Shown here: in pieces, positions 38,143 through 39,989 of the stretch | Numbering within the stretch: the stretch's first letter is position 1 | Layout of the letters: each line of letters starts with the position of its first letter | Assembly: GCA_000306725.1 (NCBI GenBank) | Contig: CP003083.1 | Coordinates: 806,001 to 870,000, forward strand | DNA from: Methanolobus psychrophilus R15 | GTDB lineage: Archaea; Halobacteriota; Methanosarcinia; Methanosarcinales; Methanosarcinaceae | Length of the DNA stretch: 64,000 nucleotides | Reading direction: 5' to 3' | Translations under genes and position numbers: made by a program | The notes under the pieces: model-generated | Seen by the model: the letters and a program-made list of their open reading frames with translations, nothing else | What the model was told of the DNA's origin: nothing | The model's database searches: none

Positions 38143-38295
38143 ATTCGCTGTGCTTAGAAATATAAAGTGGTCAGATCCGTATCCGGAAATGATAAAGTAT
38201 GCATCCTCAGCAATTGGCTTTGTCAGGTTTTACTATGCAATTTTCCCATGGTGAGTTTTACATATTAGTTACCAAGAAAAAGACTTAAATAATAA

Positions 38296-38314
38296 TGATT
38301 CCTATTTAGAATTA
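38296..38314. promoter_or_regulatory. Near-palindrome at the fur-prx promoter
   Basis: TGATTC and GAATTA (one mismatch from perfect) are separated by 7 bases, directly after a TATA-like CTTAAATAAT (38284-38293). The expected transcription start, about 38314, would be covered by a protein bound here. AT-rich palindromes of this size are typical for Fur/PerR repressors, so autoregulation by the adjacent gene is a reasonable guess. Confidence 0.4.
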
Positions 38315-38382
38315 GATATTAAAACGGATTTGCTAAAAGCAAACACAACCATAAAAGACTGAAATTGAAGGAATGATCACAG

Positions 38383-38775
38383 ACGAGTACAGAAGGCATC
38401 AAATACACAAATCAAAGGATAGAGATCCTGCAGTTCCTGAAGGAATTCGACGGGCATCCTACCGTAGAAGACGTGTACGAAGGCGTCAGGAAAAGGCTGA
38501 CCAGGATAAGTAAAGCCACTGTATACAGCAATCTAAGATTCCTGGCTGAAAAAGGCCTGATCAAAGAGGTGAACATCAAGGGAGTTTCCAGGTTTGAGGC
38601 AAATCTTGTACCGCACCACCACATCATCTGTATTGAATGTGGTAAGATATCTGATTACGAATCAGAAGAACTGACAGATTACTCGCTGAAGATAGCGAGT
38701 GATATAGAAGACTTTGAAGTAGAGACCACAGATACGAACTTTTACGGATTCTGTAAAGAATGTATGGAGGAATAA
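38383..38775 (+). CDS. Fur/PerR-family metalloregulator with non-standard start
   Basis: 130 aa if begun at ACG 38383. The N-terminal winged helix (IKYTNQRIEILQFLKEFDGH, then ISKATVYSNLRFLAEKGLI), the PHHHIICIECGKISD metal site and the C-terminal CKEC pair identify a Fur/PerR repressor. The conserved N-terminus lies upstream of the first conventional codon, a GTG at 38473, which would remove 30 residues. Either ACG is the start (GGAATGATC four bases before), or translation begins at the ATG of 38373 and shifts by +1 within about 15 nt, or one base is wrong. It ends one base before the peroxiredoxin ATG. Confidence 0.75.
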   Translation, partial: TSTEGIKYTNQRIEILQFLKEFDGHPTVEDVYEGVRKRLTRISKATVYSNLRFLAEKGLIKEVNIKGVSRFEANLVPHHHIICIECGKISDYESEELTDYSLKIASDIEDFEVETTDTNFYGFCKECMEE

Positions 38776-38776
38776 T

Positions 38777-39448
38777 ATGGACGAAATAGTAACAATGCCG
38801 CTCATAGGCGATGATGCACCGACGTTTACAGCAAAGACGACCATGGGAGAGATCAATTTCCCCAAGGACTACAAAGGCAAATGGGTCATCCTCTTCAGCC
38901 ACCCGGCAGACTTCACGCCTGTGTGTACCACGGAGTTCATGACATTTGCAAGCATGCAGAAGGATTTCAAAGCACTAAATTGTGAGCTCATCGGCCTGTC
39001 CATCGATAGCATCTACGCCCACATTGCATGGCTTAGGACCATCAAGGAAAAGATAGAGTACAAGGGAATGAAAAATGTAGAGGTGGCTTTCCCTGTTATC
39101 GAAGACCTCAAGATGACCGTTGCAAAGAAATTCGGAATGCTTCAGCCAGGTGCTTCCGACACCCAGGCTGTAAGGGCAGTGTTCTTCATGGATCCCAAGG
39201 CCAAGATAAGGGCCATACTCTACTACCCGCTCTCAAACGGCAGGAATATGGACGAGGTCATGAGGCTGCTTAAAGCCATGCAGAAGTCTGACGCAGAAGG
39301 TGTTGCAACACCAGCGAACTGGCAGCCAGGAGAAGACGTCATAATCCCGCCACCCGGATCATGCGGAGTTGCAAAAGAAAGAGTCGAGTCCAAGGATGCA
39401 AACACATACTGTCTCGACTGGTTCATGTGCTTCAAGAAACAATCTTAA
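38777..39448 (+). CDS. Peroxiredoxin (AhpC/TSA, archaeal Prx6 type)
   Basis: 223 aa. It reduces hydrogen and organic peroxides. The peroxidatic Cys is in HPADFTPVCTTEF (about residue 50). C-terminal cysteines in PGSCGV and YCLDWFMCF are candidates for resolving Cys. The length and the extended C-terminus are those of archaeal 1-Cys-type peroxiredoxins working as large oligomers. GGAGG precedes the ATG. It follows the Fur-like gene by one base and precedes a ferritin-like gene, forming an oxidative-stress operon. Confidence 0.94.
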   Translation: MDEIVTMPLIGDDAPTFTAKTTMGEINFPKDYKGKWVILFSHPADFTPVCTTEFMTFASMQKDFKALNCELIGLSIDSIYAHIAWLRTIKEKIEYKGMKNVEVAFPVIEDLKMTVAKKFGMLQPGASDTQAVRAVFFMDPKAKIRAILYYPLSNGRNMDEVMRLLKAMQKSDAEGVATPANWQPGEDVIIPPPGSCGVAKERVESKDANTYCLDWFMCFKKQS

Positions 39449-39485: not shown

Positions 39486-39989
39486 ATCGGAACAAAAGGA
39501 ATCCAAATACTTGAAACTCTCGGAGTAGATGTCAAGGATCTGATCGAATCACTGAACAAGGCACTGGCAGATGAGTGGCTTGCATATTATCAGTACTGGG
39601 TAGGGGCCAAGGTCATCAAGGGCCCTATGAAGGAAGAGGCGGCAGCCGAACTTATCCAGCATGCTGCTGACGAGCTCAGGCACGCAGATATGGTGGCATC
39701 AAGGATCATACAGCTTGGAGGAACTCCCATACTCTCACCGGAAGAATGGTTAAAGGTAAGCAACTGTGGATATGATGCTCCAATTGATCCTTTTGTAAAG
39801 AGGGTCCTTGAACAGAACATCAAAGGCGAGCAGTGCGCGATCCAGACTTATAACACTATATTGAACAAAGTCAAGGATAAGGACCCTGTGACCTACAATA
39901 TGGTCCTGCAAATAATGACCGATGAGATCGAGCACGAGGATGACCTACAGGCAGTTCTCGAAGACATCGAACTTCTACAACAGAAATAA
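39486..39989 (+). CDS. Ferritin-like diiron protein with ATC start codon
   Basis: 167 aa. A four-helix ferritin-like protein: LNKALADEWLAYYQYWVGAK (first metal Glu), AADELRHADMVASRIIQ (Glu and His), EQNIKGEQCAIQTY, and MTDEIEHEDDLQAVL (Glu, His). It probably oxidises or stores iron, removing the Fenton reagent in an operon with peroxiredoxin. As I remember the family, homologs start M-x-T-K-G-I. Here GTKGI is preceded by ATC, with GGTGA seven bases before it. No ATG, GTG or TTG exists in frame before 39627, which would delete helix 1. The open frame begins after a TAG near 39449. Confidence 0.75.
   Translation: MGTKGIQILETLGVDVKDLIESLNKALADEWLAYYQYWVGAKVIKGPMKEEAAAELIQHAADELRHADMVASRIIQLGGTPILSPEEWLKVSNCGYDAPIDPFVKRVLEQNIKGEQCAIQTYNTILNKVKDKDPVTYNMVLQIMTDEIEHEDDLQAVLEDIELLQQK

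Follow-up and report, generated by a model that had tools for sequence, protein, structure and literature searches.

A conserved ACG codon as the probable translation start of a PerR-like repressor gene in Methanolobus

Organization of the locus

The window is a 64,000 nucleotide stretch of the Methanolobus psychrophilus R15 genome, which is complete in one contig of 3,072,769 bases. It carries an operon on the forward (+) strand with the gene order perR-prx-ferritin. The perR-like gene is situated at 38383..38775 and consists of 130 codons plus the stop codon TAA (38773-38775). The peroxiredoxin gene (AhpC/1-Cys Prx family, 38777..39448, + strand) begins with ATG at 38777, one base after the perR stop, and displays GGAGGA at 38766-38771. 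The third gene encodes a ferritin/DPS-like protein (39486..39989, +) and shows ATC in place of ATG.

A TATA-box-like element, TTAAATAAT, is found at 38285..38293 (+) and would belong to the operon promoter; a T-T-A-A-A/G-T-A-A block recurs in every Methanolobus upstream region that was aligned. An imperfect inverted repeat, ATTCCTATTTAGAAT, follows at 38298..38312 (+) and is a possible auto-regulatory operator. A+T-rich dyads that resemble it are found in some relatives.

A second operon is present in the same genome (L002, G000:C1:15385), with the gene order perR, prx, ferritin remnant, katG. Its Fur protein is 96% identical to that of the window copy. The ferritin remnant between prx and katG is at L002:2599-2829 (G000:C1:16483-16713). 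A similar remnant is found in G011:C8 and in G003; G008 has a fragment that is rearranged.

Similarity of the gene product to PerR

The amino acid sequence displays a FUR domain (PF01475) with an E-value = 1.2e-29 and a score of 103.3 bits vs. the Pfam gathering score of 23.1. The best solved relative is Bacillus subtilis PerR (PDB 2fe3, E-value = 1.5e-22), with which the domain layout and two CxxC pairs are shared. H37, H91, H93 and D104 are also aligned, but a Glu is found in the Methanolobus protein at the position of D85. The five residues H37, D85, H91, H93 and D104 (PerR numbering) are the regulatory ligands of PerR. The best NCBIfam model is likewise a PerR, but the score of 101 bits is below its cut-off of 180. 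Thus the gene product appears closest to PerR, and is a putative PerR-like repressor of the Fur family encoded first in a peroxide-defence operon. The gene context of prx, ferritin and katG suggests that it may repress its own operon in a peroxide-responsive manner.

The start region and its conservation in Methanolobus

In the window copy, the Fur/PerR-like frame opens after a TGA (38374-38376), which closes the frame upstream and which overlaps an out-of-frame ATG at 38373-38375 (38373..38376 for the overlapping pair, +). No in-frame ATG, GTG or TTG is found from this TGA to the GTG at codon 31 (38473..38475, +), the first conventional in-frame start. The absence of a conventional start before 38473 had been proposed in a sequence-only reading of this DNA, and all of its coordinates proved correct when re-checked. 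The sequence GGAATGATC is present at 38370-38378, and four bases, ACAG, separate it from an ACG at 38383..38385 (+).

The same gene was compared in 27 Methanolobus genomes, with one gene copy cut by a contig end. ACG is found at the start position in eight copies from six genomes: two each in G000 and G011, and one each in G018, G008, G003 and G017. The assemblies are independent and include that of an isolate, M. halotolerans SY-01 (G003). In 18 other Methanolobus orthologs an ATG occupies this same codon, five codons before the Ile of the conserved IKYTNQR sequence, which gives strong comparative support to ACG 38383 as the start, as the sequence-only reading had suggested. In G009 and G026 the ATG is situated eight codons before this Ile. 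In these two close relatives (L009, L010) the ATG, which is part of an ATGATC, precedes the usual ATG position by three codons, is offset by one base from the register of the window ATG at 38373, and has no clear Shine-Dalgarno sequence.

The eight ACG copies form one clade (support 98/98) in a tree built on codons 3′ of the start region, and all eight frames are open. The clade contains both katG-linked and ferritin-linked operons, thus the ACG has persisted in both paralogs. The best explanation from the sequence comparison is that the ACG start was fixed once.

The same gene in other genera shows conventional ATG or TTG starts upstream. In the more distant relatives G071 and L048, an ATG is found upstream of an ACG codon, which makes the position of the ancestral start less certain. 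The G071 sequence (L103, another genus) reads ATG-GAT-GGA-TTA-AAT-ACG before the conserved region, with no clear Shine-Dalgarno sequence upstream of the ATG; the GGATTA preceding its ACG is similar to the leader of the ACG clade. A search with the pattern GGAWKGATYACAGACG gave matches in 7 of 112 genomes of the family, and outside the perR-like gene there were two chance matches within other reading frames.

The start region of the second operon in M. psychrophilus reads GGAAGGATCACAG-ACG-GAT-ACG-GAA-GGC-ATC. The ACG is kept and the out-of-frame ATG is absent, which removes both a single-base error and a +1 shift common to the two copies.

Shine-Dalgarno pairing and the leader

An extended Shine-Dalgarno-like block, AGGAATGATC, is present at 38369..38378 (+) and takes the form AGGAAkGATy in the clade. 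It pairs in two parts with the 3′ end of 16S rRNA, GGATCACCTCCT, and the energy of this pairing ranges from −7.2 to −9.2 kcal/mol among the eight copies. In the calculated pairing, the distance from its end to the ACG equals the distance from its end to the ATG in most sister species. The block is the most conserved part of the leader; the sequence AGGAA.GAT.ACAGACG is conserved, and the leader further upstream drifts.

Other leader features were considered. The leader is weakly structured around the Shine-Dalgarno block and the ACG, so a start within a stable leader hairpin was rejected. A short upstream open reading frame, TTG-AAG-GAA-TGA, with re-initiation at the ACG was also rejected, as it is confined to the window copy and G018.

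A search for initiator-type tRNAs used the pattern of the anticodon arm and required T as the last anticodon base, which CAT and CGT share. It gave only two tRNAs, a tRNA-Met(CAT) and a tRNA-Arg(TCT); the sole initiator-type tRNA found by this pattern has the anticodon CAT, and the idea of a further initiator tRNA that carries CGU was rejected. A stricter initiator pattern gave no match.

Bounds on the site of initiation

In-frame stops are found close to the ACG. The TGA ends 6 bases (2 codons) upstream in L001 and L005, and in L031 a TAG ends 15 bases (5 codons) upstream. Over codons −4 to 0, pairwise comparison gives 19 nonsynonymous differences and 0 synonymous ones, the pattern that a leader should show. 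Codons 6–30 show a pN/pS of 0.07 vs. 0.12 for the rest of the gene, indicative of strong purifying selection; thus the region before GTG 38473 appears to be translated. There is no in-frame ATG, GTG or TTG from the ACG to codon 31 in any clade copy, and within codons −1 to 5 the ACG at position 1 alone is both shared by all copies and a single base away from ATG. Near-cognate initiation is characterized by a region from the upstream stop to the conserved coding sequence that lacks a conventional start, and by a codon that differs from ATG by one base, aligns with the ATG of orthologs and is conserved across species; both features are found here.

The invariance of the ACG is not significant alone, as 11 of the 25 four-fold codons whose amino acid is conserved show no variation in the clade either. 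The case for the ACG, a sequence-based one, rests on its position, on the bounding stops and on the Shine-Dalgarno geometry. On this comparative evidence the ACG is very probably a real, conserved start codon.

Other possible starts

Initiation might take place at the near-cognate ATC of codon 6 (38398), which would give a protein five residues shorter. ATC or ATA, one change from ATG, is present here in all copies, and residues 1–5 are not conserved. However, the Shine-Dalgarno block is about 20 bases away, the sister species begin at the ACG position, and those species have a conserved Ile at codon 6. Initiation at codon 6 is improbable.

The GTG at codon 31, used as a sole or second start, would produce a 100-residue protein. 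It is found in 8 of 8 clade members and in 0 of 27 other sequences, and is the only synonymous clade-specific codon. Its fixation in the clade possibly reflects an internal start or chance. But the constraint on codons 6–30 shows that these are translated, the GTG has no credible Shine-Dalgarno sequence, and its product would be without the first DNA-binding helix and a metal-ligand His. It was rejected as the main start, and even the broader proposal, with a second start included, is quite improbable.

A programmed +1 frameshift, in which ribosomes begin at ATG 38373 and then shift into the Fur frame, was the other reading offered from the sequence. This ATG is preceded by AAGGA and is only one base out of frame, and G009 and G026 begin at an in-frame ATG in a similar ATGATC context. 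But six of the eight ACG copies lack this ATG and read GGAAGGAT, among them the second copy of the same genome, and the proposed joining by a +1 shift fails on this point. The ATG is derived, a recent G-to-T change in the window/G018 (L005) pair that also created the TGA, and there is no evident shift site. A conserved other-frame start combined with a conserved shift site, as would be characteristic of +1 frameshifting, is not found in the clade, and the frameshift is very unlikely. An out-of-frame open reading frame of 46 codons (38373-38513) overlaps the Fur start; its ATG is found only here and in G018.

C-to-U editing of the mRNA, a process of plant organelles, could convert the ACG to AUG but is less likely still; direct ACG initiation requires no extra machinery, and such mRNA editing is not known to occur in methanogens. 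Such editing does convert ACG to AUG at chloroplast starts (PMC9845219). An assembly error or pseudogene, for which the private ATC of the adjoining ferritin could be cited as a possible error, has almost no likelihood given the ACG in six genomes, eight open frames and strong purifying selection. The single-base error named in the sequence-only reading, one that restores an ATG-led frame, is excluded by the same ACG in independent genomes.

The ferritin ATC

The ferritin start is ATG in 10 of 10 other comparable starts, among them G018 (99% identical), G011, G017, G013, G020, G024, G026, G009 and the second copy. The ATC at 39486-39488 is private to the window genome, whereas the ACG of the perR-like gene is clade-wide and old; thus there is no shared control of the two odd starts, and the common translational control suggested earlier does not hold. 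The ferritin ATC reflects either a change confined to this genome or an error.

Proposed mechanism and effect

The extended Shine-Dalgarno AGGAAkGATy, four bases upstream, would position the 30S subunit at ACG 38383, and the usual initiator tRNA(Met) would decode the ACG. The first residue is then presumably methionine. Initiation at the ACG is expected to be weak, which would keep the repressor scarce in relation to the peroxiredoxin, whose gene follows on the same mRNA. A low repressor level may in turn give the operon a higher basal level or faster induction. With an ACG for the repressor and an ATG behind GGAGGA for prx on one mRNA, a low repressor/enzyme ratio is the simplest effect, and the ACG start probably serves to lower the repressor amount relative to peroxiredoxin. 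The repressor level would then be set by selection rather than be tolerated drift. Since the ACG has persisted in two paralogs and six genomes, its function is presumably at least adequate.

In one E. coli reporter study, which is not archaeal, ACG gave approximately 0.1–1.5% of ATG activity (PMC6925171), and in Haloferax even UUG is unused on short-leader transcripts (PMC4574771); thus the yield from the ACG could be very low. A literature search found no figure for ACG start strength in archaea, and the papers searched contained no N-terminal peptide, profiling or reporter result for initiation at this ACG. The main text of the M. psychrophilus transcription start site study (PMC5378194) does not mention the perR-like gene. 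A further, rather doubtful proposal is that ACG initiation is conditional on stress or temperature. It would then act as a switch above peroxide sensing by PerR, possibly together with a DNA-binding-defective 100-residue product from the codon-31 GTG.

Relation to known systems

The bacterial infC gene begins with a near-cognate AUU and encodes the initiation factor that discriminates against its own codon. Like infC, the perR-like gene shows a conserved start outside ATG/GTG/TTG that is placed by a Shine-Dalgarno sequence, and the level of the product matters in both; however the PerR-like protein has no role in start-codon discrimination. The E. coli lacI gene has a GTG start, which gives lower repressor and higher basal operon expression (PMC11445065). 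Both genes are repressors with a sub-optimal start codon, in which less repressor raises the basal expression of the operon, but GTG is a normal prokaryotic start and ACG is not, and lacI is not co-transcribed with its target. In addition, the effect is documented for lacI and predicted from sequence for the perR-like gene. ACG starts occur in eukaryotes and their viruses, e.g. the Sendai virus P/C mRNA (cited in PMC9845219). The codon is the same and the initiator tRNA(Met) would be as well, but there the start is selected by scanning and context, and in the archaeon by Shine-Dalgarno pairing.

The archaeal starts named in a review are AUG, GUG and UUG (PMC7531240), and another review reports archaeal non-canonical translation as shown only in elongation and termination (PMC8211752). 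The ACG start is thus unusual for archaea and is a variant of known near-cognate initiation. Annotation restricted to ATG/GTG/TTG would remove 30 residues, some of them in the DNA-binding domain, from the protein in at least six genomes. A conserved ACG in a methanogen provides a ready test of the strictness of archaeal initiation, as the sister species with ATG can serve as controls. The same system would test whether lineages set the level of a repressor by means of a poor start.
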